64,000 nucleotides of DNA from Bryoerythrophyllum caledonicum (taxonomy: Eukaryota; Streptophyta; Bryopsida; Pottiales; Pottiaceae): contig OZ020516.1 of the NCBI GenBank assembly GCA_963971425.1, positions 16,232,593 through 16,296,592 on the forward strand, written 5' to 3'. Below the pieces are notes generated by a model that was not told where the DNA came from, made no database searches, and saw nothing but the letters and a program-made list of their open reading frames with translations. Position 1 is the stretch's first letter; the number at the start of each line of letters is the position of its first letter. This document shows positions 4,318 through 50,787 of the stretch, in pieces. Position numbers and translations under genes: made by a program.

Positions 4318-4603
4318 AAAGCAACCAACCATAAGAATATTGCAATTTAAATATCATTGCAACTGAGTGGTATACAGTGACTTCAAAATGGTGTGTGATT
4401 TTCTACAGTTGTTGCTGACTCTGTGCTTGGATGCAAGGACCAAAGAGATGACGTTCCGGATTTGGTTTTATCACTGACACAAATAGGATCTTATCATGTA
4501 CTATGATGCACGAGTGATATCTGCAATGTGAGATCGTGCATTGTGCAAACAACCATGTGACTAAACACAAAAGTAGGTAAACCAAAATTAATGTTTAGTC
4601 TAG

Positions 4604-4820
4604 CCCCTAAAGGCCCAATGCATCTTAGATGAATCTCTACTTTGTTGATTAAAAATTGCCAAGATGGACTTTTTGAGAACGTAACTGTAGGATCTTCTTC
4701 TAAACTTACATGAGATGATGTGGTCAAAATTTTGTGAATTTTTGACCATACGGATTGAAAAATGACTGGAGTCAAAGTGAAGATTTTTGTACCCTGCAGG
4801 TACACTTGGTCTTTTAAAGG
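4604..4820 (+). mobile_element. Group C MITE, copy 1, in a CTAG site
   Basis: This 217-bp element starts CCCCTAAAGGCCCAA and ends with the imperfect inverted complement TTGGTCTTTTAAAGG. It is flanked on both sides by the palindrome CTAG (4600-4603 and 4821-4824), a TTAA-like tetranucleotide duplication. Its body aligns along its length with the copies at 6347-6541 and 26835-27050. No ORF of note, so it must be non-autonomous. Confidence 0.7.
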
Positions 4821-4823
4821 CTA

Positions 4824-4973
4824 GTGATACTTTATGATTTGAAAGTGCTACAACTTTTTACTTTTGACAAAGATTTTTTACTGAAAGAGTATAACTTAAA
4901 GAAGGTGATCATCGTCAACATGGTTGGTAAAAGTATTCATTGAGGGTGAAAACCTAGAGCATTTATAAATCAT
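4824..4973 (+). repeat. Left copy of a duplicated H-like segment
   Basis: This segment is almost identical to 5197-5325 on the other side of the H element at 4977-5194. Both copies share the run from TACAACTTTTTACTTTTGAC to GGGTGAAAACCTAGA. The sequence is a diverged relative of the H element interior. The arrangement reads segment, H element, segment. Confidence 0.65.
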
Positions 4974-4976
4974 ATA

Positions 4977-5194
4977 CACTAAAGATCACATTTAGTGTAA
5001 TGCTCAGTAAATGACTTGTAAATGCAATAAGTTTTTACTCTTGATGCCAATTTTTACCAAGAGCACAACTCTCTACAGTATTCAAATAAGAGGATCAATA
5101 TAAACATAGTTGGTAAAAATATTCACTTAAAGTAAAAAACTTATCGCATTTTCAAGTCATTTACTGAGCATTACACTAAATGTGATCTTTAGTG
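4977..5194 (+). mobile_element. Group H MITE (Tc1/mariner-like, TA flanks), copy 1
   Basis: A 218-bp element with inverted ends of about 40 bp: CACTAAAGATCACATTTAG on the left and its complement on the right. TA dinucleotides flank both ends (4975-4976 and 5195-5196). TA duplication with CACT termini is characteristic of the Tc1/mariner superfamily. The interior has no coding capacity. Related copies lie at 27475-27670 and 39622-39837, with a truncated one at 54877. Confidence 0.7.
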
Positions 5195-5196
5195 TA

Positions 5197-5325
5197 GTGA
5201 TATGATTTGAAAATGCTACAACTTTTTACTTTTGACAAAGACTTTTTACTGAAAGAGTATAACTTAAAGAGGGTGATCATCGTCAACATGGTTGGTAAAA
5301 GTATTCATTGAGGGTGAAAACCTAG
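5197..5325 (+). repeat. Right copy of the duplicated H-like segment
   Basis: Direct repeat of 4824-4958, differing by only a few substitutions and one short gap. It ends abruptly after the CCTAGA that both copies share. The close match implies a recent local duplication. Confidence 0.65.
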
Positions 5326-5329
5326 ATGT

Positions 5330-6340: not shown

Positions 6341-6346
6341 CCTCAA

Positions 6347-6541
6347 CCCCTAAAGGCCCAAGACGTTTTAGAGGAATATCTACTCCGTTGATTATAACTT
6401 ACCAAGATAATGTAACCGTATGATCTTCTTCTAAACTTATATAAGATGATGTGGTTAAAATCTCGTGAATTTTGACCGTATGGATAGATACAAGCAAAGT
6501 GAAATTTTTTGTACCCCGTAGATACACTTGGGCCTTTAGGG
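6347..6541 (+). mobile_element. Group C MITE, copy 2
   Basis: It begins CCCCTAAAGGCCCAAG and ends CTTGGGCCTTTAGGG, an inverted pair matching copy 3. Flanks are TCAA and ATTA, that is, degraded TTAA. A SINE-like S copy follows within a few bases, and then an inverted group C relic. Confidence 0.7.
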
Positions 6542-6547
6542 ATTATA

Positions 6548-6664
6548 GTACTTCTTTATACTAACCTATATCCCCTTGCCATAGTCTTAGTGAAGAGAAT
6601 GAACAAACGCTATATTCACGCTCGATTCCTTCGGGAACTAGAGTTCTTCTTCTTCTTCTTCTTG
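6548..6664 (+). mobile_element. SINE-like S element, copy 1 (diverged)
   Basis: It carries the S family order: a CATAGTCTTAGTG block, ACAAACGC, a TTCACG(C) hairpin region with CCTTCGGGAACT, and a 3' tail of (TTC)6. The 5' part is degraded. It sits between two group C elements in opposite orientation. Confidence 0.55.
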
Positions 6665-6866
6665 ACAACCCTTATTGTAAAAGTGGACCATAGTGTCACG
6701 AATTATTGTGCTCAGAGTCAAATTGCGTGGTCAAAATTCACTAATTTTTACCACATCATCTCATATAGGTTGAGAAGAAGATCCGACGGTTACATTCTCA
6801 AAATTTTCATCTTGACAGTTTTCAACCAATGGAGTAGAGATTCCTCTAAATTTGGCCGTGGTCATG
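6665..6866 (-). mobile_element. Group C MITE relic, inverted
   Basis: Read on the minus strand it matches the interior of group C, including CTCTACTCCATTGGTTG-like and CCGTCGGATCTTCTTCTCAA-like stretches. The outer terminal repeat is not preserved. With copy 2 and the S element it forms a C(+)-S-C(-) composite from about 6347 to 6866. Confidence 0.5.
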
Positions 6867-7171: not shown

Positions 7172-7243
7172 GTACATGTATCTAGATGCCCTAGTACATG
7201 TATCTAGATGCGCTAGTACATGTATCTAGATGCCCTAGTACAT
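7172..7243 (+). repeat. 22-bp minisatellite, about 3 units
   Basis: The unit TACATGTATCTAGATGCCCT plus AG is repeated three times with one C-to-G difference in the middle unit. It contains nested palindromes (TACATGTA and TCTAGA). Confidence 0.75.
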
Positions 7244-7508
7244 GCAGTTGCTGACCAAACATTTGTCATTCTCTATGCCTCAATCATGTATTCGGGCGTA
7301 CTTTGGAATACACAGTACAACTGAGTACATGCACCATGCATACATGCACGTTTATCTTACATACTCGCACCCAGTTCTCTTCTCTTCTCTAGCAAAAAAA
7401 AAAAATCAACAAAACGACCATTGCTGTGAATAAATCAGCATCTGGTGAAAAATCAGAGGAAAACTCCATCAGTGGCAACAAAAAAAAAAAAAAAAAAAAA
7501 GCAAAGCG

Positions 7509-7796
7509 GTGCTCGTACCTGTCAAGAAGGGATTACACAGCATCAGCACCACCTCACTTTCGTCGCCGCAACGGCAAGTCAGCGTGACAGAGCGGCTTCA
7601 GAAATATGGTAGACGTTTCTCACCAAGACGTCTTTCCGGAGCAGTCAACGTTGAAAGCACCGAGGCAATAATCGAGGACGGCAATCATGCCAGGGCATAT
7701 TCCCTCACGACGTGTCTGCAGCAGCCTCCCAAAGTCGGCAGTAATCAGTTCCAGGAGCTGCCCGAAGGTAATTCCTTTCTCAAAAACCAGGACTAG
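7509..7796 (+). other. Isolated 95-codon open frame, unassigned
   Basis: An open stretch of ordinary protein-like composition (Arg, Ser, Gln and Glu rich, about 95 residues). It has more balanced base composition than its AT-rich surroundings. Its first codon is GTG, so as a plant gene it would need an upstream exon, and a 20-base A-run lies just before it. No domain recognised. It could be a residual 3' exon or chance. The duplicated segment beginning at 7910 lies downstream. Confidence 0.2.
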
Positions 7797-7909
7797 TCAA
7801 TATTATGTGGATATCATCATGTGAGTCGAGGACTGCTACGTCTTCGGGTGCAAGGGAGACACGTCGTTGTGCTCAGTTGACACGTCCAAGTCTGCAACGT
7901 GATGAAGCT

Positions 7910-8076
7910 GATGAAGCTGCTCAATCGTGTCAAGGTTGATCAGAAAACATGGTAGACTGATTCGGTCAACTCTGATTACATCCAACATGTAACTGTACTA
8001 CTACGTCTTTATCTTTCCGGTGTAACTGTGATGTGATGCTTATGTTGATCAGGTTTATAAGTTGCCTTTGTCAAAG
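7910..8076 (+). repeat. Left unit of a ~160-bp direct duplication
   Basis: Begins GATGAAGCTGCTCAATC and ends near CTTTGTCAAAG. The same sequence, with scattered differences, recurs at 8253-8402, separated only by the CACTA-type element. Shared landmarks include CATGGTAG, CTGATTCGGTCA and CGTCTTTATCTTTCCGGTGT. Confidence 0.85.
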
Positions 8077-8079
8077 GAT

Positions 8080-8402: not shown

Positions 8403-8538
8403 CTGGTGCATGCTTTGAAGGTGCCACATGATACCCTTTTTTTTTGTGGCCTTTGATTGAACATCGTTGAATGTGACGACATCGGACGTTGACGTTATGA
8501 GCCAGTAATGTGCAAGGTGAGTAAGGAGTCCTTTTTAA

Positions 8539-8738
8539 CCCTTGAACGTCAGTCGGGAACCGTGTATATCGGGACGTATTTTACTCTGTAGAATACCTAA
8601 ATAATACTGAAGTCTGGCAAGACTTGCGCTTTTGGATTGAAGGTTCTTCAACTAACATCTTTCGTTTGGAGGTCATTTCAATCAATCTAAATCATATTCA
8701 TATAGAATACTATGGCCACCAGTGGCACCTTATGACGT
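8539..8738 (+). mobile_element. Group B MITE, copy 1, right end broken by a group G element
   Basis: Left flank TTAA (8535-8538), then CCCTTGAACGTCAGTCGGG. The body matches the other B copies up to the right end CTTATGACGTTTAA. The final GGG-TTAA is missing because a G element begins immediately after the internal TTAA (8739-8742) of the right terminal repeat. This is one of several nested insertions into that TTAA. Confidence 0.8.
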
Positions 8739-8742
8739 TTAA

Positions 8743-9615
8743 CCTCTAATTTATCAAGAGTCCCCTCAAGGGACTCTTGAAGGTTTGCACAAGTATCTCG
8801 TGCATCAATTTATAACATTATTTTTTGAAATTTGTACTGTAGATGCACGTTACTAAAAGCTTTGTGTAAGTCCGATTTTTTTTTCCTGAATCTGACATTT
8901 AATGAAAAAGTTATGGGGTTTTGAAGTTCAAATGGGGAGAGCGAGAATGTTGGGCAACTTTTTCTAGGACACTATTGAATGTGAGATTTTCAATAATAGC
9001 AATCAATGCAATTTCTTATCAAATTGCCAAAAAAAATCTCTTGTCTTTAGTGGAAAATAACAAATTAATCCAAGTCAAACATTTTCACACATTGTCGCAC
9101 ATTGTCGCACATTGTCGACCAAGGTACCCAAAAAAATTCTTCCTTTCCTCATAAACTTAGAGATCTTCATATTTTTTACTTTTTATTTTTACCACATCAA
9201 TATGTAGTATAAACATTCTTATTGACCATTTGGATTCATTCTTAAACATATTAAGTTCACAAAATAATAAAACGTGAATTGACAATTTTTGAACCACCAC
9301 ACTTTGCACATTTGTTTTTTGAATATGTCACACCCTTTTTTTACCTCTAAAAATTGGTGCACAAGGAACTAATATCATGCTTAAGATGGTGGTAACGAAT
9401 TTAGACCTTGTGTAGTGCAAAAATTGGACACCAAGTGAAGTTGAAGTATGTTGATCCACAAACGCAGGGAAGAAAATGAATCCTTTTCTATACTTCAAAC
9501 ACTATAATCTTTCAATCCGTACGGTCAAAGTTTATGAAATTTTGTGAGTATGTTACTTAATAAATTTTGTGAGTATGTTACTTAATAAGTTTTGATCAAG
9601 ATCCTACGGTTTAAC
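8743..9615 (-). mobile_element. Group F/G element, copy G1 (reverse orientation)
   Basis: It starts CCTCTAATTTATCAAGAG followed by the near-palindrome AGTCCCCTCAAGGGACT. It then runs as the reverse complement of 32735-33637, sharing the CCCCATTTGAACTTCAAAACCCTATAAC-type segment, the TGTGAAAATGTTTGACTTGG region and the TTTAGAGGTA region. It is inserted in the TTAA of B copy 1. The distal end is eroded. It contains a triple ACATTGTCGC repeat at 9087-9118 and a 25-bp direct repeat at 9538-9587. No coding capacity. Confidence 0.6.
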
Positions 9616-9639
9616 TTATTATAAATATTTTAGCATATT

Positions 9640-15813: not shown

Positions 15814-16097
15814 CCCTTTAAGACCTACAAGAGATCTTTTCTTGGATGAATCTACAATGGTAATAGATTATGTAGAATATCATTCACAAGAGAGGTACAT
15901 TGCATCGAGACTCCACTTCACGCAAATCACTTTAGTTTTCCAATGCCTGCATCGGTATTGGTGGCGCCAGTCTTGGTAGATGCTCATCTTGCTCCGCCTC
16001 TAAACTTTCCTCAAATTTTCCTTGGAGGTGGCCTGTAGTGCTTACTACAAAGGTTATCATGCCGAAACAACCCAAAATGGTCGCTTGTCCTTCACCC
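15814..16097 (+). mobile_element. Group A MITE, copy A1
   Basis: Left TTAA (15810-15813) is followed by CCCTTTAAGACC. The body shares with the other A copies the TGGTAATAGATTATGTAGAA block, a GGTACAT block, the CACTTCACG block and the ATGCCGAAACAACCCAAAA block near the right end. The right terminus is eroded. Confidence 0.65.
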
Positions 16098-16142
16098 TAT
16101 AACGACAAACAAACCAGAATGTGGTCAATAAGACCAGTTTTC

Positions 16143-16391
16143 AGGGAGCCCCCGCTGATTGAACCGTTGGATTGATTTGCACTAGTCAGAGCGGTTGTGC
16201 GTTATGCTTTCCTCCATCTAACCCATCTTTCCGATCTCCAATCGGTTGAGGCAATAACGAACTACAATGATTTGTGTGAAAAAAGTGAACATTGAAATAC
16301 ACTCATAGAGTAGATGTTGTTGTGAAGAATCTATTTAATCATTAAAAAATAATCAGAGCAGTGTCCCCATGGCCTTGTTGTTAAAGGGTTA
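16143..16391 (-). mobile_element. Group A MITE relic, reverse orientation
   Basis: On the minus strand it starts next to TTAA as CCCTTTAACAACAAGGCC and continues with the degraded A-type interior, including AACGAACTACAATGATTT on the plus strand, which also occurs in the 4013-4317 relic. The far end is unclear. Confidence 0.45.
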
Positions 16392-17028
16392 ACGGATTAA
16401 AAGAGTGGTGTCGTATGAGCTGCCCGAGCAGTTACGGAATGTCTCATGCTGTTGGAGGCTGGCAAAAAGCTGCGGTAATTTCCAAGGTTCCCAAAGAAGA
16501 AAGAAGACATTTTCACTTTCTCCACCGTCATTATTTTTTTTTCATATTTTCCCCTTGGTTGGGAGAGTGGTGGGGGCATGGCAGGCCACAAAATTATGGG
16601 GGTGGAATATGAAGGTGAACTTTCTCTGGGAGTTGCTTTTGAGTACAAGCTTGCGAGAGAGTCGACTAGTGTCCGACATGAGCCATGCCGTGTACATGCC
16701 TGTTCCACTCCACATCCGCTACTGTCTGTAGCTTGTTGACCCCGCATTGACCAAGAGCCAGAAAGTGTGGGTCAAGCCCGGAAGATTTTTCTTGGGAATA
16801 ATAACTTACCACATCGCCTGGCGCTTGCAAATTCACAGCTATTGTACCACATCCAGGTCTTACAAATTTAGGCAATACTCAGAAGCTAGTATGACTTGTC
16901 ACTTCAACATATTCCCCCGAGTTGCACGTGAGAAACAGAACCGATGCCCTTCTGTTTGGTTTTTGTCATGAGGTGGAAGTTTCGGAAGACGGAATCCAAT
17001 CGTAGGATACATTGATGATTGTACTTAA

Positions 17029-17253
17029 CCCTTAAACTTCATAAGGTATCATGGGTGGCTACCGTATTCTACATGTATGGTGTTGAATTTGAACATAATA
17101 AGGTTCACATATTGAAGTGACCTCCAAATGAAAGATGTTAGTTGAAGAATCTTCAATCCAAAGGTGTAACTCTTGCTAAACTTCAATACATTTTATGTAT
17201 TCTACAAAGTAAAAATGTGTGCTGGTGTATATGGTTCAGAGTGACGTTTAACG
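17029..17253 (-). mobile_element. Group B MITE, copy 2, complete
   Basis: A 225-bp element flanked by TTAA on both sides (17025-17028 and 17254-17257). The plus-strand left end is CCCTTAAACTTCATAAGG and the right end is GTGACGTTTAACGG. The core includes ATGTTAGTTGAAGAATCTTC, common to all B copies. Confidence 0.85.
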
Positions 17254-17576
17254 GTTAACCCTGAAAGGTCTGCAAGTCTGGACAACCCATTGCCACCAAC
17301 ATTTTACTACTCTTTTTTCCTTACAGGTTGGATTTGGATTAGTTTTACATCAATATGAAAGTTGAAGCATAAGGTAGAATTTTAGTTTAACCCTTAAACG
17401 AGGAGCTTGGTTTCTACAAAATCTTCTCTGTAGCTCTTCTTGTACTCAACTTTTCACTTATTTTTTGATATCATTCTAATCACCTTCTTTTGATGCATTC
17501 ACAAAGTGAAATTTTACAAAACAAATCACAATTTGTATGAGTGATTTGTGCTTTGAAAGGATTGTGGTAGGTAGGT

Positions 17577-17719
17577 GTTACATAGTGTCTACCCTCGAGA
17601 GAGGGAAGTAGTTCCAGCTTACTAATTCCTTGTCCTGTGGGCATGGTCTTAGTAGCGGAACAAACAGACACTTTATTCACGCCGGCCTCCTTCGGAGACC
17701 GGCGTTCTTCTTCTTCTTT
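17577..17719 (+). mobile_element. SINE-like S element, copy 3, with 12-bp target duplication
   Basis: A 143-bp retroposon bounded by TGGTAGGTAGGT at 17565-17576 and 17720-17731. It runs from a GTGTCTACCCTCGAGAGAGG block through GGCATGGTCTTAGTAG and AACAAACAGACACTTTATTC to a 3' hairpin (GCCGGCCTC-CTTCGGAGACCGGC) and a (TTC)n plus T-run tail. A variable-length target duplication and an A/T-type simple tail indicate LINE-style retroposition. No convincing Pol III A/B boxes were found, so tRNA ancestry is not claimed. Confidence 0.8.
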
Positions 17720-17889
17720 TGGTAGGTAGGTTGATAACCTTGTAGGAGGTTGCAAGCTCATCATTGATTGGTTTATTCATGATGCCCAAGTTCAAAAAGT
17801 GCACTATTCATTGATGTCCAAGTACAGAAGATGCCGTGATCCAATTTTGGGCTGCCTGCCCAGGCCATGAATTGTAGTTTAAGGGTTAA

Positions 17890-18403
17890 TCCTTTACCCT
17901 TCAAGGCCTAGTGTCCATTTTTGGGTCGTTTCGGCATGAGAATCTCAATTACGAATGCTACATGCCACCTCCATGAAATAATTTATCTATAATATAGAGG
18001 TGGAGGAAGATGGGCATCTATTGGGACATGCACTATAGAAATTGGTGCAAGCACCGGCGAGCTATATTGTTTTCTGTGAAGTGGGGTCGCGATGAAATGT
18101 ACCTTGTATGTAAATGTCCATCTGCATGGTCAAGAACACTTGTAGACTCTTGCAAGCTAAAATAGTTCATCTGCCGTAAAGAGTTAAACGTTATGAGGTG
18201 TCAATGGTGGCCACAATATTCTACATGTATGGTGTTGTATTTGGACATGGTAAGGTTCACATTGTGAAATGAACTCCAAATCAAAGGTGTTAGTTGAAGA
18301 ACCTTCAATCCAAAGATGTAAATCTTGCAAAACTTTGTTACATTTTTTATCTTTAGAATAAAATACTTGCCTAGCATATATACGGTTACCAACTGACATT
18401 TAA
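17890..18403 (-). mobile_element. Group B MITE, copy 3, split by two group A insertions
   Basis: The outer TTAA is at 17886-17889. The three terminal bases (TCC) then meet a TTTA/TTAA target (17893-17896 and 18184-18187) that brackets group A element 17897-18183. The B body resumes at ACGTTATGAGGTGTC and runs to GACATTTAA, where a second group A element begins at 18404. Both insertions hit the TTAA that lies inside the B terminal repeat (CCC-TTAA-ACG). Confidence 0.8.
17897..18183 (-). mobile_element. Group A MITE, copy A2, nested in B copy 3
   Basis: A 287-bp element with ends CCCTTCAAGGCC and (inverted) CTCTTTACGGC. On the minus strand it follows the canonical A interior: GTACATTTCATCGCGACCCC, GCTTGCACC, GATGCCCATCTTCCTCCACC and ATGCCGAAACGACCC. 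It is flanked by TTTA and TTAA copies of the target inside the B terminal repeat. Confidence 0.8.
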
Positions 18404-18690
18404 CCCTTTAAGGCCAATGAACTTTTTCCGCATGTGAAGATCTACCAATATTATAGATCATGCAAAATGACATCTATGCAGTGGGTACATGTCAACACAA
18501 AAATCTACAAACTCATCTTACAGAAATCATTGTAGCTTGCCAATGCTTGCACCGATTGTGGTGGCTATGATCTCAACAGATGCCCATCGTCTTCCACCTC
18601 TAAGTCATGGTCTATATTTTCCTTTGAGGTGGCCTATAGTACTTTCTGTAAAGGTTCTTATGCCAAAACAACCCATATATGGATTTGCCT
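18404..18690 (+). mobile_element. Group A MITE, copy A3, in the other end of B copy 3
   Basis: Starts CCCTTTAAGGCCAATGAAC directly after the TTAA (18400-18403) of the B right terminal repeat. The interior matches A4 at 50047 closely, up to ATGCCAAAACAACCCATAT. The right terminal repeat is not recognisable. Confidence 0.75.
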
Positions 18691-18739
18691 AAATACCCCG
18701 GTCGAGCGTTGCACCCAGCCTCAGACTTAGAAGGGTGAG

Positions 18740-18940: not shown

Positions 18941-18989
18941 ATGGTGAATAAAGAGATCCCCATATATGGTCAATTGGCCTTAAAGGAAT

Positions 18990-20590: not shown

Positions 20591-21403
20591 CAAGTCTCAT
20601 ATGATTAATTATACAATCATTGTGCAAAAAATGATCTTTCATCTTTATGTAAAGTGTAATTTCATTCTTTCCCCCATGCCGTTCCTTCAAATCATTCATT
20701 TTTTTCTTCATTTATTCATATGTTTTTTAAATGAACGTGTATGTTATTAAACTATAGTAGCTAGAGTTCTAAAGAGTAGTGTGCAAAACATGGCAATCTA
20801 AACATGTTCATTATTTTTCGAGAAATGTTTAGATAGAGGCGACAACTTTATGAAATGGAATACACTTAGTAGATATCGTACTTTTCAGTGCTTTCCGGCG
20901 CCATTTCAGAAGCCAATCCTCCACGCTTTCCTCTCGGTTAAACTCCAACTAAGTTGACATTCGAAAGCGTCGAACGTGGTAATCTTTTGGAAGGCATTAG
21001 CCTGAAAAAAACCAGATCAAGTGCCCAATTACATGGACAGTTGGCATTCTAACCGGCGACATTCATACAACAGCCTGTCAAAGCTGCGTGTTTGTCAACA
21101 AAACCGCCTCTTGTGCACTACACTCAAATTGTTCACAGCAATCGAAGCATGTATGTCTGGAAGCGCAAAAAAGTTTGGTGGTGGGACCCAATTTGTGCAC
21201 CAAAACACACCGTCTTTGTATTGTTGAAGGCCTCCCATGGATTCTTTTAATGCACACCTTTTGACCACCTTTATACTATTCAACTGGCCCCGTACGTGCG
21301 AATACATTGACCACCATAAACAAGAAGCAATTTTCTTTGTTATAATATTAGCCAAGGATGAGGACCTTGAGAACATCGATTTGAGGTGCACATTAACCCT
21401 TAA

Positions 21404-22072
21404 CCCTTAAAGGACGGAGCTATGACCGTGGCATCACTCCCGATTTTCATTCTAATATGAGCTCTAATTCTTCATCAAATGTAAGCGGAAATATTTTTAC
21501 TTCATTTTTAGAGATGACATCACATGTTTTGTTCATGTCACAAAAAACACAGGATTTTTTTGTGAAAATTCAAATTATTGTGATTTTCTAAAGAAAATTG
21601 GAAGAATATTTGTATCATATACAAATTTTGCGTAAAAAATATGATGATTTCATTGAAGGTGTACATTATTGTGCTGAAACTTGTGGTGTAGATGAAACTT
21701 CTGTGTTCAGCTAAAATTAGAAAATTGGTCATCCATGATTCTAGGCCCAAAGATTCAATTTTTTTGATAAACTTCATTTCATTAGTTGGACTTAATTTCA
21801 AAAAATATCACTTTAATGACTCAAATTCATATTTAGAGCTAAATTTAGAAGTCTCTAAAATACACTACCTTGAATTTCATGTCACAAACATTTTCTTGTT
21901 TAAAGAAAAAGTTATGGAGAAAAAGTTATACACTATATGACGGTGCATGTGGTACATGCACTCATTGACAACACCTTCACAAAAACTTGGATGAAAGTAA
22001 TGTTTTATCATCACGTGGGAGCATTTTACATTCTTCCATCAACCATATTTTGGTCGCCCCGACGTTTAAGGA
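21404..22072 (+). mobile_element. Group D TTAA element, 669 bp
   Basis: Flanked by TTAA at 21400-21403 and 22073-22076. The left end CCCTTAAAGGACGG is matched by the inverted right end TCCTTAAACGTCGG (11 of 14). The interior is AT-rich with no transposase-like frame. It shares its right-hand TTAA with the adjoining B copy 4. Confidence 0.65.
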
Positions 22073-22076
22073 TTAA

Positions 22077-22303
22077 CCGTTAAACGCCAGTCGGGAACCG
22101 TATACATAGGGACGTATTTTACTCTAGAAAATACAAAAATAAATACTAAAGTTTAGCAAGACTTACACCTTCGGATTGAAAATTCTTCAACTATCATCTT
22201 TCATTTGAAGGTCATTTCAGTATCTCAACCTTATCATGTTCAAGTACAACATTATACATGTAGAATATTGTGGCCACTAGCGGCACCTTTTAACGTTTAA
22301 GGG
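22077..22303 (+). mobile_element. Group B MITE, copy 4, abutting group D
   Basis: Starts after TTAA as CCGTTAAACGCCAGTCGGG, carries the B interior including ACTATCATCTTTCATTTGAA, and ends TTTAACGTTTAAGGG next to TTAC. Confidence 0.8.
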
Positions 22304-23151
22304 TTACTTCATGGGATGTACAATATGGGAGTTATTTCTCCAATTTTTTTTATATGATACCCCCTCTTTTATTTTACTATCATTTGTTTATTCTAAATAA
22401 TTATACTTGGCTCCCTTTACAAGAGCATATGTCATAGTAACCATTTCATATAATACTTGGCTTGCCCTCCCCACATTGTACATTCCGAGAACACAACCAT
22501 TTCAAAAAAACAATTGTTCATACAACAAGCAAACAAACAAGGCTATTGTAGAAGTTGACTATAATGAATCAATGGGAGAGCTCGTTGGTCTCTATATTGT
22601 ATCCAAGGGTCGGATTTGGCACTATTGTGCCGAATAATTATATATATCTAAAAAAAGAAGTTCAACAAAGTTGTAACAATAGGATATTCTTCAAGTTCCG
22701 TTTCTCACTATGTTAAACAATTGAAGTTTTGCTAAGAAAAAAATCCAAAAATATTGACAACTATTTTTAGAAATAGTTTAAGCCAAATCTGACCCTTGGG
22801 TACAATAATCAAGGTAGAAGTACGTATAACTACTCCTAAAAAAAGAAAGAGGGATCATGTTGTTCCATGAATCTTAAATGCCTTCTTTGTATTCAAACAA
22901 ATGAAAGATATGTATGATTTTTTAGGGTTGGTTTTTGATATTTAAAAATCAAAGAAGAGATCAAACCTCTTGGTTTCTATGCCTGACTTTGCAAACAAGT
23001 TCCACCAATTTTATAACCTTGTCTTGTCCTTGCAAAAGTTCCTTTGGAAATACTGTATGTGGAAGTTACAAAGGAATTATTGGTTGTTGATTCTAATAAC
23101 TTATAATAATACTTCTCTTATACTATACCCTAGGGTCACTCGGCTTTTTAA

Positions 23152-24916: not shown

Positions 24917-24920
24917 TTAA

Positions 24921-25851
24921 CCCCTAAAGGACTACGAGCTATTCGCTCTAAAACCAGTCCAAAACTGCCACTGTCAAAAAGAGACATGAAAATCACATTT
25001 TAAAGTGAATTTCGGATTTTCAACCGTAAGATCTTAAAATAGACTTCCATATAAACATGCCATCGAATTTTGGTTGCAATCCACCGCACAGATTGATAGA
25101 TTTTAGTGTTTAAAGTCAAAACAATGGTTCATTTTCATCCCTGCGTTGAGTAGATCAGCTGACTTTGACTTCATTTTGTATCAAAATTTTGCATTGTACA
25201 GTACAAGGTCTAAATCTTTTACCATTGTCTTAAGCATGATGTCATTTCCCAACACACCAATTTTTAGAGGTAAAAAAGTGGTGTAGCATATTCAAAACAA
25301 GTGTGCAAGGAGTGGAGGTTCAAAAATTGCCATTTCACGTTTTATTTTTTTTGTGAACTACGTATGTATTCAAATGATAATCCAAACGGTCAATAAGAAT
25401 TTTTTCACCACATATTGTTGTTGAAAAAAAAAATAAGTGAAAAATATGAAGATCTCTAGGTTTTATGTAGAAAAGATGAAATTTTTTTCCCTGTTGCCCG
25501 ACAATGTGTGAAAATGTTTGACTTGGAATAAAATGCCGTTTTACACTAAAGACAAGAATTTTTTTGGAAAATTTCTAAAGAAGGAAATATTCTTTATATG
25601 TGTGAAAAATCTCAATGTCAATAGAAACTTTTGTCAAAATTTTTGGAGGTGCCCGGAGTCCCCACTTTTGGCGTAAGTGGTACTAACTTTCAAACCACAA
25701 ATCCAAAAATAAATAAATAAATATCTCCACGAAGCTCTTATCAGATCCTATCTTGAAAAAAAAATCCAATTAAAAAGGGTTTTTTTTCGAATCATAGGTA
25801 CCTGCCCAAATTCACCAGAGGACCGTTTTGGTCCTCTTAGCCCTTTAGGGA
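24921..25851 (+). mobile_element. Group F/G TTAA element, copy F, 931 bp
   Basis: Bounded by TTAA (24917-24920 and 25852-25855). The left end CCCCTAAAGGACTACGAG and the inverted right end TCCCTAAAGGGCTAAGAG match at 15 of 18 positions. The right end carries a small inverted repeat around GAGGACCGTTTTGGTCCTC. The interior is related to G1 and G2 (CCGTAAGATCTTAAAATAG; TTTTAGAGGTA; AGTGGAGGTTCAAAAATTG) but codes for nothing recognisable. Confidence 0.8.
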
Positions 25852-25855
25852 TTAA

Positions 25856-26640: not shown

Positions 26641-26834
26641 TATTAAAAGATTGGAGTTTCACACTTTTTAAAAAAAAAGTTACTGTATACATTATAAATG
26701 CTTGAATAGTTATTATTTCTCAAATAATGAAGAGTTTCAAAATTATATTGAGGACATCTCTTAATTTATTTGATAGCTTAAATTTACGTCACTTACAATG
26801 ATGAAGTTGGGTGTTCAATGTAAACTTGCCTTAA

Positions 26835-27050
26835 TCCCAAAAGGCCCAAGGCATTTTAGAAAAATCTCTACTCCATTGATTATAATTTGACAAGATGAAC
26901 TTTTTGAGAATGTAACTGCATGATCTTCTTCTAAATTTGTTTGAGACGAAATGGTTAAAATTTTGTGAATTGTGACCATTCGGATTGAAAGATGATAATA
27001 GTCAAAGTGAAAACATTTGTACCCTGTAGGTACACTTGGGCCTTTAGGGG
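26835..27050 (+). mobile_element. Group C MITE, copy 3, complete, TTAA flanked
   Basis: A 216-bp element with TTAA at 26831-26834 and 27051-27054. Ends are TCCCAAAAGGCCCAAG and CTTGGGCCTTTAGGGG. It abuts B copy 6, the two sharing one TTAA. Confidence 0.85.
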
Positions 27051-27054
27051 TTAA

Positions 27055-27280
27055 CCCTTAAACGTCAAAAGGTGCCACTAGTGACCACTATAATCTATAT
27101 GTATGGTGTTGTATTTGAACACAATGAGGTTTAGATATTGAAATGACCTCCAAATGAAAGATGTTAGTTGAAGAATCTTCAATCCAAAGGTGTAAGTCGT
27201 ACTACACTATAAAACATCTTTTGTATACAACATAGTAAAACACTTGCCTTCCTATATGGTTCCCAACCAACGTTCAAGGG
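27055..27280 (-). mobile_element. Group B MITE, copy 6
   Basis: Starts CCCTTAAACGTCAAAAGG right after the shared TTAA and ends CAACGTTCAAGGG. It is 226 bp, the same size as copy 5. The right TTAA is mutated to TAGA. Confidence 0.85.
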
Positions 27281-27474
27281 TAGAACTAAGATGATGGATT
27301 TACCTACTTCCAAGTTAAATATGATATAAACAACTTATCAACTACACCTCCGTTGCAACTTCAAATCCTACCTTTAAGCACACGACAATCTTTTCAAATT
27401 TTCATGTCGGGCTAGGCTATCTACATTGGGAATGACCTTGCCCATCGGTTACAGTCCAACACTACACTGATTTT

Positions 27475-28827: not shown

Positions 28828-28831
28828 TTAA

Positions 28832-29576
28832 CCCCGTAGGGACAATTTGTCCCTACGAGGGACAAATCAATTTGGGCAGGGTTCTAAAAATCCATTTTTG
28901 AAGATAACTTCTTGAAATTTGTAGTGCGAATAGGAATACGGGTTGTCTTTGCGGTGGATTTTTTTTTGGACTTGTACGTAAAAACTTATGGTGCTTCAAT
29001 CGCAAAATCTTGACTCCTTTGGGAGTTGGGTAAGGTATTATAAAGGCGAATAGTGCTACTGTAGGGTTGACAATTGCACTTTTTTGAGGTAGGTAGTAGT
29101 AAAAGAAAGTTCTTGGCAACCTTCATTGTTTTCACTAAATACGCATAGAAATTAAATATTTTACTTTTTTTTTAAAGTATTTTTTCCAATGTTAGCATAA
29201 GTCATAATAAACCAATCCACCATTTGGATTTTAGACCCAACAATTATTTCTTTATTTAAAAAATAAAAGTATTTTCTTTAGTAAAGGGCCACTTTCTATA
29301 CCCCTAGTCGTTGCAGGTCCATTTTTCTTATCATAAACACCTCCATTACTTGTGATTTTTGGCGTGCTATGACCTAACACAAGTTAGAACACAAATCCAT
29401 TGAGTTTATGCAATGTGTAATGGGAAAATATGCCATTATCTTGAGTCAAAGTACGATGAACAAAAATTTAGGATATCTACACGAAGACATCCTAAAAATT
29501 TTCAGGGGTCAACATAGCGGTTGTAAAAATTTTAAGGGGTGGTTTTGGTGAAGCAGAAGGCCTGGTCCTGTAGGGG
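28832..29576 (+). mobile_element. Group E TTAA element, 745 bp
   Basis: TTAA at 28828-28831 and 29577-29580. The left end CCCCGTAGGGAC is followed at once by its own inverted copy (GTCCCTACGAGG), forming a terminal hairpin. The right end complement is CCCCTACAGGAC. The interior is AT-rich and non-coding. Confidence 0.65.
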
Positions 29577-30748
29577 TTAAATATACTGGAACAATGCAAA
29601 TGAAATACCCTTTTTATGAGGTCAAGATGACAGTGCACATTTCTAGAATTTTGGGGAAAATAAATGGCCTGCCATCCAAAGCAATGCATGTTCCATTCTA
29701 TGTTCTTGTGTAAGAATTGGTCACAAGTTATTGTAGAATGCGTCTTTGTTATTCCCAACAACTTACCTCCTCATCATCATCATAACACGGTCAACCACCT
29801 GTGAACAAACAAACATTAATTTCAAAAAAATGGTACATTTTGCTGTTAAGAGAAATCATTTAATAAAAACTTTATTATCACAAAAACAATAGATTGAAAA
29901 ATTCTTTTAAGCTGGATTGAAAATTTCTTTTAAGCTGGATTGATAAATCCTTTTAAGTTGGATTGAAAAATGCTTAGTAAAATATTACCAAGTTATTTAG
30001 TTTTGATTTTTGAGGTCCAAGTGTTATCCTTTAAATTCATTTTTTAAATTTGGATAGGTTTCCAGTGATACTTTCATGCTAGACTAGCTACATCCAATAC
30101 TTTGTCTCAACTTTTTTTTTTTTTGGTTGCCTGAATTTAATTATGCTAGACTAGCTACATCTATTACTTGTCTCAACTTTTTTTTCTTCCGTGGATTAAT
30201 TATGACAAGCTACATCAAATTATATCCAAAAAAATGATGACCATTTTTAGGGGCTTTAACCTGAATTTTATTGGTGTAAATTGGCTATCAATTTGATATT
30301 AATTGCATCAAATAACTTTGTTTCATATAAATGTTATCATGATGTGATCTCAATTTTAAGTTGAGAGTGGCTTAAAACATGCAAAATAACGTCAATGTTT
30401 TAGAAATCCTTGACTACTTCACCCGAAACATGTCAAAACTACTCATACTAGTGCAAAGATATATACACATATACACATATACATACATACATATATATAT
30501 ATATATATCTCTCTGAGATAAAAGTAGGATTTTTGATTTTGATGAAGGATTGAAGTTAGTTTATTAGCACCTTGTCCAAATGATGAAAGAACTTTGACTC
30601 ATCAAAGAGTAAAATTTGTGCACTATGGAATGGTTTTATTTAATTTATTTTTTTAATGAAAACCTCAAATAATATAGTATTTTTCATTTTATTTAAAATT
30701 TAATAGAGTGTTGTAAAAAAATTGTGGTGTTGTGTGACATGCCTATCC
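29577..30748. other. AT-rich spacer with microsatellites, up to assembly gap
   Basis: Contains a triplicated AGCTGGATTGAAAAAT-type segment (about 29890-29970), a duplicated CATGCTAGACTAGCTACATC segment (30070 and 30140) and an (AC/AT)n stretch at 30460-30508. No gene seen. Confidence 0.5.
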
Positions 30749-30948: not shown

Positions 30949-31267
30949 AGAAGAAGAAGAAGAAGAAGAAGAAGAAGAAGAAGAAGAGAAGAAGAAGAAG
31001 AAGAAGAAGAAGAAGAAGAAGAAGAAGAAGAAGAAGAAGAAGAAGAAGAAGAAGAAGAAGAAGAAGAAGAAGAAGAAGAAGAAGAAGAAGAAGAAGAAGA
31101 AGAAGAAGAAGAAGAAGAAGAAGAAGAAGAAGAAGAAGAGAAGAAGAAGAAGAAGAAGAAGAAGAAGAAGAAGAAGAAGAAGAAGAAGAAGAAGAAGAAG
31201 AAGAAGAAGAAGAAGAAGAAGAAGAAGAAGAAGAAGAAGAAGAAGAAGAAGAAGAAGAAGAAGAAGA
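30949..31267 (+). repeat. Large (AGA/GAA)n microsatellite, about 320 bp, open to the gap
   Basis: Nearly pure GAA triplets with two single-base phase slips. It is joined on the right, without interruption, to an S element in reverse orientation, so the array is an expansion of the tail of that element. The true length is unknown because the left end is in the gap. Confidence 0.97.
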
Positions 31268-31358
31268 ACTCCGGTCTTCACCACCAAGTCAATGTCCACC
31301 GAACAAAGGATTAGTAGTAAGGAACTACTTCCCTCTCTCAAGGGTAGACACTATAGTT
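31268..31358 (-). mobile_element. SINE-like S element, copy 4 (internal deletion)
   Basis: On the minus strand: GTGTCTACCCTTGAGAGAGG, AAGTAGTTCC, GGTGGACATTGAC, then the start of the 3' hairpin, then the (TTC)n array. About 35 bp of the 3' hairpin region are missing relative to 35722-35877. Confidence 0.7.
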
Positions 31359-32600: not shown

Positions 32601-32734
32601 CCAAATTCTTCCAAATAAATTGAGATTTTTGATAAAATTACTCAATATAACCTTCTTGAAGGTTGTAGCAAAGAAAAAAAAATTAAAATTCTACATCGCA
32701 AGAATTAGTTTCCAAGAGGACTTCAAGTTTTTGA

Positions 32735-33637
32735 CCCCTAAATTTCTTTGACAATTTCGCACCAAAAACACTTCAAAACTGCCAGTTCTCGTGCAATGAG
32801 AATAGAAGAAACGTTAAACCTTTATTTCTAATTTTCACCGTAAGATCTCAATAAAGACTTACTAAATAACATACTCACAAAGTTTCATAAACTTTGACCG
32901 CACAGATTGTAAGAGGGTTTAGTGGATTAGCAGACTTTGACTTCACTTGGTGTCAAATATTTGCACTACAAAAGGTCTAAATTCATTTCCATCATGTTAA
33001 GGATGATACTAGTTCCTTGTACACCAACTTTTAGAGGTAGAGGCGGGGTGTAGCATATTCAAATAAATTGTGCAAGTAGTGGAGGTTCAAAAAATGTCAA
33101 TTCATGTTATATTTTATTGTGAACTTAATATGTTTTAGAATGTGAATCCAAATGGTCAATGCAAAAGTTCACACCACATAATGCTATGGAAAAAATAAAA
33201 AGTGAAATATAAGAAGATCTCTAAGTTTAATGTGGAAAAGAAGAATATTTTTGGTACCTTGCCCTACAACATGTGACAATATGTGAAAATGTTTGACTTG
33301 GATTTATATGTTTTTTTTTCACTAACGACAAGAGATTTTTTTGACAATATGATAGGAAATATTATTATTTGCTAGCACTGATAATCTCACATTCAATAGA
33401 GTGTCCTAGCAAAAGTTTTTGGAGTTGCTTGATGTGCCCGCTCTCCCCATTTGAACTTCAAAACCCTATAACTTTTTCATTACGTGTTGGATTGAGGAAA
33501 AGATTGGATTCACACTAAGCTTTTGGTAATGTCCATCTTGAATAGTTTTTTTTAAAGAAAAATGTAATAAATTGACACCACAGGAACCTACGCAAACCTT
33601 CTAGAGTCCCCTGAGGGGACTCTTGGAAATTTAGGGG
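32735..33637 (+). mobile_element. Group F/G element, copy G2, 903 bp, TTGA flanked
   Basis: Left end CCCCTAAATTTC and right end GAAATTTAGGGG are perfect 12-bp inverted repeats. TTGA is duplicated at 32731-32734 and 33638-33641, a variant of the TTAA target. A subterminal near-perfect palindrome AGAGTCCCCTGAGGGGACTC lies at 33603-33622. The interior aligns with F and G1. Non-coding. Confidence 0.85.
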
Positions 33638-33714
33638 TTGAACACTTTGCAAATTGATTTGCCAAATTCCACATTTGTCAACACAAAATTTTGATAGAGA
33701 GAGAGCTATACATA

Positions 33715-33800: not shown

Positions 33801-34061
33801 CACAAGTGTAAATCTCTGTTGTCTTCAATGAAGCAAGGGAACATACCGAGATCCTATCCAACGCAATACCTAGCCACAAAGATACCTTGTAAAGGTATTG
33901 ACCTAAGTATTGGCCACCAGATGGATATCTGACCATTAATATATATATATACATATATCTATCTATCTATCTATCTAGAGATACACTTTGTTATTATTTC
34001 CTACCTCAAGTTGCACAACATCTTTGAGTTGCATGCACAATATGGGAGCATCTTACCATCT

Positions 34062-34324
<263 letters not shown>

Positions 34325-35877: not shown

Positions 35878-35888
35878 GGTATCACACA

Positions 35889-43400: not shown

Positions 43401-46400
43401 CAACTACCTCAGCTACTGCGCGCCCAAATACGGGCCCAAAGCGTCAAGAGAACACACAGACCAAGTGTGGGAGGCTCTGAAGCCCATCCTCCTCCCACTC
43501 TCCTTCTCGGAGCCTCAAGACGTGGAGGTTGTGAAAGCAGCCTCAGCTTGCCTCCGCACCTGGGTCTCCATCTTCCAAAGAGAGAACTCCTCCCTAGACT
43601 CACCAGGGGACTTCCTCCGTCTCACACTCCAAGACGGTCTCGTGGAGGATCTCATCACCTGTTTACAAAATGATTCTAAAGACGACTCCACCCTAAAGGA
43701 CCGTGGTAGGCTTCAAGCTGGAGCTGCAGGTCGCGTGGTGGCGGAGTCAGCTCGCGCTTCCACGTCTTCGTGTTTCCTGATTTGCAAGCAGGTGCTGCCA
43801 CAGGTTATGGCGGCCAGTGGAGGAGGAGAATCGCTAGTTGACGTTGCGGTGATGATTGTTGTGGCCGCGAGAGACCTGGCGGAGACGGTCTTTCCTGAGA
43901 AAAGTGATAGAAAGTGGGTGGAGCCGTTGCAAGAGCAATCTGAAGCTCTCATCAGTGCGTTTCATCACGCTATCACATCCAAGGTCTCTTCTGTGCTCGG
44001 AGGTAAGTTCTCTTTGAAGAAAAACCATGTTTTCCTTGAAGGAAAACGGTGTTCCACTCGAGAAAGAACCGTGTTTTGGTGTTTTCTCCATCTTACCTTT
44101 CCCCTTCATTACGACCTTGACCCAAGTGCTTTATCTTTGTATATGTGTTTGCAGTGGCAGGGTTGGAAGCTCTGGCATCATTTCCAGCGGCCTGCTCTCC
44201 ACTATCAAGCTCCCAAATGAGAAAAATCCTGTCACTCCTCAAGGACCTTCTCATGGAGGGCACGGAGGAGAACCACGTTTTCACAGCGCTGGAGAGGATA
44301 AGTGCTGCTGAGCAACAATTCGGAACAATGGATGGAGATGTTGGCGTACTGACTGTTGTGGTGCCAGACTTGTTGGGAACAGTTCGAGAGGCCAAGACAG
44401 GGAGAGTTGTGGGAAAACCTCTGAAAGTGTTAGCAAAAATATGTGGACCGAGAGCAGTGGGTCGTCAGATGGTGATTTCACATCTCAGTGGAAGTGTTCA
44501 ACTTGATCTCTCAGAGATCAAGGTAAGAATCTCACTTTCAGACTGGACCATTTAAACCCACCCCTTCTTTAGACTACCCTTTCCTCTCTCTAAATGGTTA
44601 CTAGATCAATAGAAGAGCTCGGTGGTCTCCAAACTCAACGCTTAGCCGTCTTTGCGAGTGAAGAAATAGTTTCTACCTTGAGTATGACTTGCCTTTCTCT
44701 CGTTTGAGAGGTCATTTTAATAATGAGAAAAGAGGGGGTAACTTTGGGTGATGTTAGAAACAACTCTCATGACTTCTTGGAGAGCATAATTGAGTGGTGC
44801 ATTGGATCTCAGGGAACCGAAGAAGTAGAGGAGCTTTGTGCAAAGCTGGTGGTTGTGTTGCAATCTTTGTCAGAGGATATTCTGTCTTGGTGAGTTTCTT
44901 CACCTTCAATAGAGTTTTTCTAAAGTATCACCAAGACATCCCTCTTTTCTCACCATTAAAATCACCTCTCAATAGTTCTCAATCAACCTCAAAGGAGAGA
45001 AGGGCAACTCATATCCATAGTAGAAATCCTTTCAAAGATGGCCACAACCACTGTTGGCTTGAGTTTAGAGACCACCAAGCTCTTCTATTGGTCTAATAAC
45101 TATGTAGAGTGAACCAAACTGAAACTTGAGACTTGAATGATCAGGTGTGATGATCAAGGCGCAGATCAATTGGGCACAATGGAATTATCGGCAGAGATTT
45201 GGAGGATTGTGTCTACAGATGCTGTCAAGTGTAGTCAAGAGGTACGACAGTCGCTTCTTCTTGATATGAACTTGCTCCACATTGTGAAGCTACCGAGAGT
45301 TTTAACCTCTTTTCTCATCTTTACTGATTAAATTTAGTTTATAATTTCCTCAGGCAGCAAAGATTCATGACCTCTCCTTCTTCATTCTCAAAAGGCAACC
45401 AGAAGCATTGACCTAGAGGGGTAAGTTACTAAAGTTTGGGTGACTTCAGGTGCTAGAATGGAGCTTGAAAGCGATGCGAGGAGTTGTTGTGAAGTGTGAC
45501 GCCACAAATCAGGGCAAAATCCTAGAAGAAGGCGCAAAGCTTCTGTCTGACGCAACATCTCCTCATCAAATGGACTGGCTCTGTGCTCTTCTGGCTTCAG
45601 TGATTGTGTCATTGAGGCCCAGCACAACAGTGCCTAACAAGGAGGCAATGCTAAGTCTGCTGATGCGCGTGGCCCAATCTCAGAAACCTCTCCTTGTTAC
45701 TGAGACAAGCGCGCAAGCCGTGGCGTCACTGCTAAATAAGTGGAAGGCTGGAGCTACAAACGAGGTATCTCAACTCATTTTTAAGACACTTCTTCAGACA
45801 CATTCCAAGACATTTTTATAACATTTTTTGACACATTTTTAAAGACACTTTCTAGACACTAAGCTGTCCTTAATATGCAGATCTGGCACTCTTTAGAAGT
45901 AGTAAGGTGTCTTAACCCCTGAAGGCCCAAGAGTCCCCCGAGGGGACTCTTACAGTTTCCGGAGGGGGCTCTTGGGCCTTTCGGTATTAAAAGGGGTCTT
46001 AATCAACCCTAGTTTCAATACTGTCTTTTCATCATTCATTCGTAGCTTTTTAAGGCTCTTTTTAAGCTACAATTTGGACACTTTAGTGCTTTAACCAACC
46101 CTAAGTTCCAGTAGTATCTCTTCATCAGTCATCTTGAGCTTGGAGTTGACTTTTTGGCTCTAACTGCTTCTAACTTTTTTGTGTTGGTGCCAGGCTGATG
46201 GTTTCACCTTAGACAAAGCTGTATTCATGACATTGAGTGAAGGCTGTTTATCTCTGATTGCAAGCACCTCTAGCTCGGAAGAAGATGTCTCCAAGGTTTC
46301 CGGGGTCCGCGCTGCCGCATGGATTGGAAAAGGGTTAGCAATGAGAGGCCATAATGGAGTGTCCGGCGTGGCATCCACATTGCTAAGGCTCCTATTGTCA

Positions 46401-48503: not shown

Positions 48504-50042
48504 AACCTGGGAAGTTGAGAAACCAGGCTTCAGTCTACAGGTTGAGAGTTGAGAACACAACCAGCTGATTTCTGGAGGTGAGTCTCATTTTGTAGAGTTG
48601 TTCCGTTTCACTATCTATAGAGGTAATCTGTATCCGATGTACTTTAGAAACCAAATTGAAATATTTTAGGGTGAAACCCACATTGGTCATCTAGCCTGGT
48701 TTCAGATTCTCATGTTGTGGAGGGAACACCATCTCGAGGTCGAGCTAGCTGAACCTGTCTAGGGTTTAGGGCTCCCATTCTATGACCTACTACCCTAAAC
48801 CCTAAACGCCCGGAGCATGTGAAGGTCTCCTTGCATATGAAGCTGCAGAAGGTAGAAAACACGCTTCAGTGGTAGATGAAGGTCTTAGTACTTGTTTTTC
48901 CTTACCCTAAGTGGAGGTCTACTTCGTACATAATTAATTCAAAATGGCCGGTGTCCGAATTTCTTGGAAAATACATACATTTTGTCTAAGGTGATACCCA
49001 TGTGATGCCAAGGTCATACTCATATAATATCTATGTGATACTTGTGTAATATCTAGGTGATACCCATTAAGTCCAAACCTCTGTGCGAGGAAAAATTAAT
49101 TAATTTGACACAAGGTTGTTGAACTAGACCTTGGGGTACGGTATCTCAACGTTGACTTTGTCTTGTATTTGGGAAAAAAAGATATTGATCATCACAGCCT
49201 TACGCACATAATGTTGCAACCCTTACGAGGCTCTTCCCTTTTGTCAGCAAGATGTGCTAATAAGTCGATCAGTTACGTATGGTAATGGGTTACCTTACGT
49301 GGCCGGTTGTGGGGTCCGTCGGATTTTGCTAATCGACGGCTGAAGATGGGCCCTTGAAATTTGGCTGACGATTGAGATTCTGTGCTGCAAGGAGTTGGTT
49401 AGCCTCCTCTTTGCCAACCACGTGCTGCCATGTATTCGAAATTTTACCCATGACCCGTTACAGTGAGGGGGAAAGTCGTTGTAAGTTGGAGGAAATGGCC
49501 TAAAAAGAATCAATTGTTAACCATTGGCAAGGGTGCTCTAGGCAGCTACTCTGACGGTAGTTGAACGTCCAAAGGTCTACTTGATAGGGAATGCAAGTCG
49601 GGCAACCACTCCACTCCGTCCGTGGGATGGTCTTAGAGCAACTCCATCTCTAGTGCCAGCCTGGCCATGGTGGGCTAAGGGACGCTTGGAGATGAATCCC
49701 ACCGTTGACCGTTGGTTCAAGCCTAGTCAAAATGGGGAAAACATACTTTATGTACGAATTGACGTAAACTTGACTTCCGAACGAGAACGCAAAGTCAACT
49801 CAATGTGTGAGAACACGAGGTAATCGTTCGGCCTACTACACAGTGAGCACTTGTTGGTTACACCACTTCGCATTGATCTGATGTGCACTTGGGAAAATGT
49901 GGGTTTGTGGTGTCAGTTTGCTATGTTAAGGCCAACCTTGTGACCGGGACGTCGGCCCGAACCTCGTGGTGGGGAAACTTTCTATAGAATCTGCACCAAT
50001 CAAGTAAATCTGCCGGGAGCCGATGCCCATGTGGACATGCTC
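48504..50042. other. MMS19 downstream region, no further gene seen
   Basis: Includes an inverted pair of telomere-type repeats (GGGTTTAGGG at about 48761 and CCCTAAACCCTAAAC at 48791-48806) and a degenerate run of GTGATACC/TATCTATGTGATAC units at 48990-49065. Open frames at 49295-49823 lack domains. Confidence 0.5.
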
Positions 50043-50046
50043 TTAA

Positions 50047-50529
50047 CCCTTTAAGGCCAATGAGCTTTTCTAGCCCGTGAGAATCTACAAGTGTTCCATA
50101 TCATGTAGAATAACATCTATGCATGAGGTACATTTTATCACAACCCCCATTTACAAAAATCACTATGGCTCGCCAATGCTTGCACCGATTGTTGTGGCAA
50201 TCTTCTCATCATATGCCCATCTTCCTCCACCTCTTTCTCATTGTTTAACCCTTGAACGTCAGTCGGGAACCGTATTTACATGTGAGTATTTTACTCTACA
50301 GAATACCAAAAAAGTACTAGAGTCTAGCAAGACTTACACCTTCGGATTGAAAACTCTTCAACTAACATCTTTCATTTGGAGCTCATTCTAGTATCTTAAC
50401 CTTATCATGTTCAAATACAACAATATACATGTAGAATACCATGGCCACCAGCAACACCTTCTGACAATCATGGAGGTGGCATGTAGCAGTTGCTATGAAG
50501 ATTATCGTACCGAAACGATCCAAAATGGG
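50047..50529 (+). mobile_element. Group A MITE, copy A4, split by a group B insertion
   Basis: TTAA at 50043-50046 and 50530-50533. Starts CCCTTTAAGGCCAATGAGC. The A sequence follows A3 up to CACCTCTTTCTCATTG, is interrupted by a B copy, and resumes at TCATGGAGGTGGCATGTAGC to GATCCAAAATGGG. Confidence 0.8.
50249..50466 (+). mobile_element. Group B MITE, copy 8, nested in A4
   Basis: Left TTAA (50245-50248), CCCTTGAACGTCAGTCGGG start, and a B-type body ending CACCTTCTGAC, where the last bases of the right terminal repeat are lost. Confidence 0.8.
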
Positions 50530-50787
50530 TTAACCCTTTAACGTCGGGCTAGCTATGGCACAACCATCAATCTACAAGCGTAGTAGACGATACGTTTTGG
50601 AATCTATAACACTCATAGATGATGGTCGCACCATAGCCAACCCGGTCAAGAGGGCAACATGAGCGGCAAGGACGGCAAAGCCTCAATCCTAAGGGCTCAA
50701 AGGAAATGAGTATCCACCCTCCAAATACTCTCAAAATATATTCAGGCTTTGATACCCAAATTGCGTTAATCCCCTACTAGGTGGCGC

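Follow-up and report, generated by a model that had tools for sequence, protein, structure and literature searches.

The window, by which we mean the whole stretch analysed (C3:16232593-16296592, 64,000 bases), lies in the 437 Mb, 894-contig genome of the moss Bryoerythrophyllum caledonicum. A Pfam scan outlined a Dof gene, exons encoding TIR and leucine-rich-repeat domains, and a sub-threshold match to MMS19, set among repeats and short elements (Table 1). Elsewhere in the genome a single LEAFY locus was found, with Asp in KMRDYVH and Cys in GAWCQ, which we take to be the type II residues at positions 312 and 345. The type II form is described in a passage of PMC6588583 as mainly the moss type, occurring alone in Bryopsida. 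This LEAFY locus points to a moss as the host.

The spacers of this genome harbor many short MITEs of the piggyBac superfamily that carry no genes. A first-pass annotation of the window had proposed at least six MITE groups with inverted CCC-type ends, and this was borne out, with each of the seven groups searched (A to G) being repeated across the genome and presenting CCC-type inverted ends; for each group 40 candidates were scored, and the figures reported here are hence not copy numbers. Direct reading of the sites showed the earlier flank coordinates to be right to within one base. It recovered TTAA at both ends of the elements for which this had been reported (17025/17255, 23148/23378, 21400/22073, 24917/25852, 26831/27051, 28828/29577 and 45912/45987), as well as CTAG (4600/4821) and TTGA (32731/33638) at both ends of two others. 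For the group A element at 17025 the flanking TTAA pair stood, and the position of the right-hand site was corrected by one base, from 17254 to 17255-17258. The claim that such elements dominate the spacers was too strong, since the element library covers 7,483 of 64,000 bases (11.7%), or 16.0% of positions 4600-50533, values that leave out decayed copies and unlisted families.

Table 1. Features of the window, numbered from its first base.
Positions	Strand	Feature	Basis
309..1598		open frame of 429 codons, no Pfam match	
4600..4824	+	group D element, CTAG on both sides in place of TTAA	direct reading, family copies
4833..4958 and 5201..5326		two 126-base direct repeats, 98% identical, starts 368 bp apart, just past the D element	
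6345..6545	+	group D copy, shortened	
8535..9563	-	partial A-type copy, then G-type copy (about 8737-9563, reverse)	
16091..16343	+	piece of another TTAA family with tips CCCTTTAA; related to an element adjacent to L029	
17025..17258	+	group A element, TTAA on both sides	
18177..18407	+	group A copy, ends decayed	
21400..22076	+	group B element, TTAA on both sides, the right one common to the next A copy	
22073..22309	-	reverse-oriented group A copy, abutting group B at a common TTAA	
23148..23381	+	group A element, TTAA on both sides	
24917..25855	+	group C element, TTAA on both sides; 20-base box of right end identical to that of E30	
26831..27054	+	group D element, TTAA on both sides; both ends resemble both ends of the T37/T30 transposase family	
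27051..27285	+	group A copy, left TTAA common to group D	
28828..29580	+	group E element, TTAA on both sides; left-end palindrome centred at base 25, weak box (6/20 mismatches) at base 40	
30949..31268		AGA array, about 107 copies, adjoining an N run	
32731..33641	+	group G element, TTGA on both sides; single TTAA near 32996 is the E12 site in another G-type element	
34061..34324		TTG array, 88 copies	
45912..45990	+	group F element of 71 bp, flanked by TTAA	
47612..47803	-	incomplete group A copy	
50245..50500	-	reverse-oriented group A copy; single TTAA at the E29 site of another A-type copy	
56225..60166	-	TIR and leucine-rich-repeat exons of a disease-resistance-like gene	Pfam scan

A blind scan for TTAA-flanked inverted pairs (14-base inverted ends matching at 11 or more of 14 positions, both starting with YYY, 60-1200 bp apart) returned six pairs in the window, two of which overlap with one right end in common (17025-17889 and 17387-17889), against none in 20 first-order Markov simulations. 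The window contains 296 TTAA sites, and eleven other 4-mers gave two pairs altogether in the same scan. Several known elements are missed by this rule (group A at 17025, groups E and F, and those at non-TTAA sites), so the scan reveals an excess and is not a complete inventory. Adjoining elements are in places joined at four bases, as with D to A at 27051 and B to A at 22073; the same joining is seen in head-to-tail group A copies whose ends overlap by four bases, suggesting a single TTAA between them, at C9:25494655-25495062 (L130) and C7:6625685-6626070 (L129).

The target site was assessed on 114 copies fetched from the genome (D 30, F 20, G 10, E 10, B 10, C 10 and A 24). Among the 112 with both ends readable, which as best-scoring matches are biased to well-kept copies, 84 had TTAA on both sides; the other 28 lacked it on one side (24 copies) or on both (4 copies). 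Counted by ends, TTAA lay directly outside the tip at 194 of 226 readable ends (A 43/47, B 19/20, C 20/20, D 47/59, E 16/20, F 35/40 and G 14/20). These sets include the window's own D and A copies (L045 and L001) and one insertion that was duplicated (L053 and L054, with identical flanks); four tandem A loci were left out. A less selected test is given by the exact 19-base C-type end CCCCTAAAGGACCACGACC, also present in the C-type copy L200, which occurs at 1,095 places in the genome and is directly preceded by TTAA at 1,010 of them (92%); the reversed control pattern was found at 0 places genome-wide.

The tips of all families start with CCC, a few decayed copies excepted. A passage of PMC2872659 characterizes the piggyBac superfamily by tips of 12-19 bp with a CC[C/T]T terminal motif. 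The tips of A and B (CCCTTAAA) fit this motif exactly, and those of C, D, E, F and G (CCCCTAAA) present CCCT one base in, likewise in coral CMITE family III. By tip and target, A, B and F are placed in the piggyBac superfamily. The first-pass annotation had also named Kolobok, which possesses a different transposase, as an alternative; these elements target TTAA as well, but they are very improbable here because their termini, as given in a passage of PMC6004289, are AG or RR, against the CCC of the tips in this genome, and two elements with CCC-type tips carry piggyBac transposases.

The number of duplicated bases, proposed earlier as a check, was read from copies at unusual sites. Three copies present the same four non-TTAA bases on both sides, namely CTAG (window 4600), TTGA (window 32731) and CTAA (L148), which favors a duplication of four bases over one of TA. 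This bears on a Tc1/mariner-type interpretation, with TA duplication and tips beginning ACCCC: at TTAA sites a TA duplication with an A/T tip yields the same sequence, and the two empty sites described below could not by themselves discriminate, but the CTAG, TTGA and CTAA pairs do not follow from a TA rule with a fixed A/T tip and the resident transposases belong to PF13843. We give this interpretation very little credence. hAT elements duplicate 8 bp and Mutator elements 9-11 bp. That the families might be hAT or Mutator miniatures, with duplications of 8-11 bases that happen to prefer TTAA, is exceedingly improbable: none of the ten C copies intact at both ends has the left flank TTAATTAA needed for an eight-base duplication starting with TTAA, no longer direct repeats were seen around these ten copies, and the resident transposases are of another class.

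Empty sites, the other check proposed earlier, showed a single TTAA in two cases, both provided by longer elements. E12 (C3:17751100-17760200) extends from TTAA to TTAA over 6.55 kb, including a 200-N gap, and contains an unbroken frame encoding the protein P0001. With E12 taken out, the sequence on its two sides forms one continuous G-type element; at the matching position a lone TTAA is found in three window copies, namely the G element at 32731, the C element at 24917 and a reverse copy near 9384. E29 extends over 5.0 kb from TTAA to TTAA inside an A-type element, and its open frame, read in L029, has 575 codons; the insertion point of E29 corresponds to a single TTAA in the window A copy at 50245 only, the other aligned window A copies having diverged. 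The target in this genome is TTAA, duplicated on insertion and single in empty sites, as in piggyBac.

The hosts of E12 and E29 are themselves members of the groups defined in the window (G-type and A-type, respectively). Within E12, a further TTAA element of 0.88 kb is nested (about bases 7182-8068); three copies of the TCAAAACTGCCA box, spaced 19 bases apart, lie at bases 20, 39 and 58 of the left end of this nested element. A nested 1.37-kb insertion in E30 (C2:23038300-23045350) was dropped as a third empty site on account of an untidy join. A TTAA...TTAG element at L030 was likewise rejected as complete: E30 and E37 (C8:124700-132700) remain alike, with gaps, for about 850 bp (in E37) past their common right end with its TTAG flank, a likeness that capture of neighboring DNA by the element could explain. 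Since the right end of this T37/T30 family has TTAG in both copies and the likeness continues beyond it, the end is not proven to lie there.

The first-pass annotation had reported no transposase in the window and had predicted an autonomous source elsewhere in the genome, and both statements held. With 30 transposase domains as queries, the best match in the window had E = 0.17, and longer TTAA-flanked elements with piggyBac transposases were identified outside it. The genome contains 120 matches to the piggyBac transposase domain PF13843 (DDE_Tnp_1_7), each above the cut-off, from a search with 305 candidates, 116 of them scored; matches were found in 0 of 14 control genomes. The nearest on the window's chromosome, among the matches listed, lies about 215 kb away (C3:16511244). 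Among the matches listed for families A-G and PF13843, none fell on contigs C5 or C13.

Nineteen of the 30 fetched transposase domains contain no stop. The columns aligned to D268, D346 and D447 of piggyBac hold Asp in all 30 domains, and the column aligned to D450 in 29. P0001 (793 aa, from L012) matched piggyBac (6x67) at 1.3e-28 and piggyBat (9c0f) at 1.4e-24, and counting along the alignment places its D451, D538 and D656 opposite D268, D346 and D447. A run of C and H residues was seen by eye at its C-terminal end; the Pfam scan matched only PF13843. The longer relatives hence encode predicted DDE_Tnp_1_7 transposases with the putative catalytic aspartates, and the miniatures carry no gene.

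To relate the miniatures to these elements, ends were compared ungapped from the tip, over 16 tip bases and then the next 24, with eight transposase ends (ends were worked out for four elements, and in E12 and E29 for both sides). The D copy L050 agreed with the right end of T37 at 15/16 tip and 18/24 subsequent bases, and with its left end at 15/16 and 13/24; the corresponding values for the window D element were 13/16 and 17/24 at the right end and 15/16 and 14/24 at the left. The left end of G matched that of E12 at 14/16 and 15/24. Over bases 17-40, the right end of G and both ends of C and E matched the transposase ends poorly. In a stretch of 132 bp that reaches the tip, L200 and the left end of E30 are 71% alike.

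Further in, a 20-base box, TTTGGGCAGGTACCTATGAT, starts at base 40-42 in 6 of 24 ends (E37_L, E30_L, E12_R, C_R, G_R and E_L); mismatches number 0 to 6, and the boxes of the window C element and E30 are identical. At six mismatches five other window sites are also found, so the match at E_L counts for little. The other end of E12, C and G carries CCAAAACTGCCA at base 39-40 (with one mismatch in G), a sequence found at no other place in the window at up to one mismatch. These comparisons show ends common to miniatures and transposase elements at both ends of D, at the left end of G, and at the right end and box of C, and only weakly so in E. F has only the tip in common with them, and no exact full-length parent of any miniature was found among the loci read. 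C/G interior matches beside many transposases were rejected as evidence of descent; where examined, they are separate G-type elements inserted nearby. A rough, uncomputed estimate places about four G/C-type copies in every 64 kb, and such neighbors were therefore not used as evidence.

For A, B and F, no transposase partner of their own was found among the transposase ends compared. The tips of A agree with the eight ends at 11/16 at most and those of B at 13/16 at most, with poor agreement beyond, as would be expected if the mover of A and B were a transposase with no relation to the piggyBac elements examined here. We consider this unlikely: the target and CCC tips of A and B are those of the other families, and the comparison draws on four transposase elements, two of them (E12 and E29) at both ends.

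A palindrome also recurs in some of these ends. Perfect stems no shorter than 6 bp, with centres at bases 24-27, were present in 6 of 26 ends from 13 elements (C_R, G_R, E_L, D_R, N12_R and T37_L), against 237 of 19,915 random window stretches (1.19%), a count made on the same ends in which the palindrome had first been noticed by eye and hence not a blind test. Five right ends were entered one base early, shifting their centres by one, and the true centre in N12_R is 25. The palindrome occurs at one end per element only, its stem differs in sequence between ends, and 20 of the 26 ends, including those of E12 and E30, lack it near base 25. Folding energy gave a weak signal (mean z -1.0; 6/24 ends below -2, against 4/60 controls), for which reason the count by position is reported in its place. 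In piggyBac, a passage of PMC7351741 describes core domains that hold the first 16 bases and a cysteine-rich domain that, as a dimer, binds the palindromic repeat spanning bases 17-33 at one end. The position observed here agrees with that binding site, which is suggestive and not proof.

Taken together, these data indicate that the groups are very probably piggyBac-superfamily MITEs moved in trans by the piggyBac transposases of longer elements in the same genome. The piggyBac-type reading put forward in the first-pass annotation is supported by the TTAA target, the four-base duplication, the empty sites and the resident transposases. Under this model, the gene-less miniatures would be cut and pasted by transposases encoded elsewhere in the genome, with the transposase core reading about 16 tip bases, a putative cysteine-rich tail recognizing, at one end, the palindrome around base 25, and the box at bases 40-42 possibly acting as a further contact site. 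As a more tentative extension, which we regard as possible and rather less likely to hold than to fail, the piggyBac ends of this moss may be modular: a fixed 16-base tip and a box near base 40 would flank a palindrome whose centre (base 25) is constant and whose sequence is swapped between families, at one end per element. Joint change of the cysteine-rich domain and the palindrome could then give rise to new MITE families, with one transposase core serving many miniatures.

Some of this movement was probably recent. Besides the window C element, 39 C copies were scored, and 14 of these match it at 96-97% identity; TTAA lies on both sides in 10/10 C copies read. Among the matches listed for the other six groups, identities are mostly 80-90%. 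The transposase domains of L009, L012 and L014, from three chromosomes, are nearly identical in the tree, L009 having one stop. The identity among C copies and the near-identity of these domains suggest that C and at least one transposase family have probably moved recently.

Elements of the piggyBac kind are familiar from animals, and descriptions from plants are sparse. The first-pass remark that they are little described in land plants stands in part: the main text of a 2025 MITE survey covering 207 plant genomes, including four from bryophytes, contains neither 'piggybac' nor 'ttaa', but PiggyBac is listed among angiosperm MITE superfamilies in a passage of a 2023 review (PMC10004981) and has a row (1230; 122417; 0.00) in a table of the C-fern genome paper (PMC6890710). 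No description of piggyBac elements in mosses or early land plants was found among the literature matches listed, which comprise titles and word counts and include few subscription papers; the word count of 2 for one moss paper (PMC10619864) reflects, in its matching passage, 'piggybacking'. The superfamily is known and already listed for plants, and its description in a moss is new within the literature covered, with Repbase and Dfam outside the comparison. A TTAA class of this kind could be missed or misfiled by some existing schemes. With its unbroken piggyBac frames, miniatures that look recent and several lineages of transposase, this plant genome would allow tests of how one core could serve many end families, and might provide a plant-adapted piggyBac tool with traceless excision.

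Several known systems share features with the elements described here. Kolobok and the T2-MITE of Xenopus (in the passage of PMC6004289) are alike in target and differ in their AG/RR tips and in their transposase. The plant PiggyBac entries bear the same superfamily name, in passages that present no ends, sites or transposases (PMC6890710 and PMC10004981). Among miniatures, a parallel is offered by the CMITE families of Acropora corals, which, in the passages of PMC2872659, combine TTAA, CCC-type tips and piggyBac-like elements in the same genome, and comprise several families with one internal sequence in common and tandem arrays. Coral CMITEs are about 100 bp long, with an estimated 1,600 copies in A. 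millepora according to the same passages, whereas the moss miniatures span 71-931 bp in seven or more families with a common subterminal box and related C/G interiors. With piggyBac of Trichoplusia ni (PDB 6x67), the moss elements share the TTAA target, the CCC tips and catalytic aspartates in the same order. The palindrome near base 25 in some moss ends may correspond to the palindromic repeat that piggyBac has at bases 17-33 of its left end (passage of PMC7351741). The moss elements differ from piggyBac in their plant host, in a length of 5-6.6 kb, and in that the match to 6x67 starts at residue 295 of P0001 and residue 119 of piggyBac, which indicates that P0001 has a longer N-terminal part.
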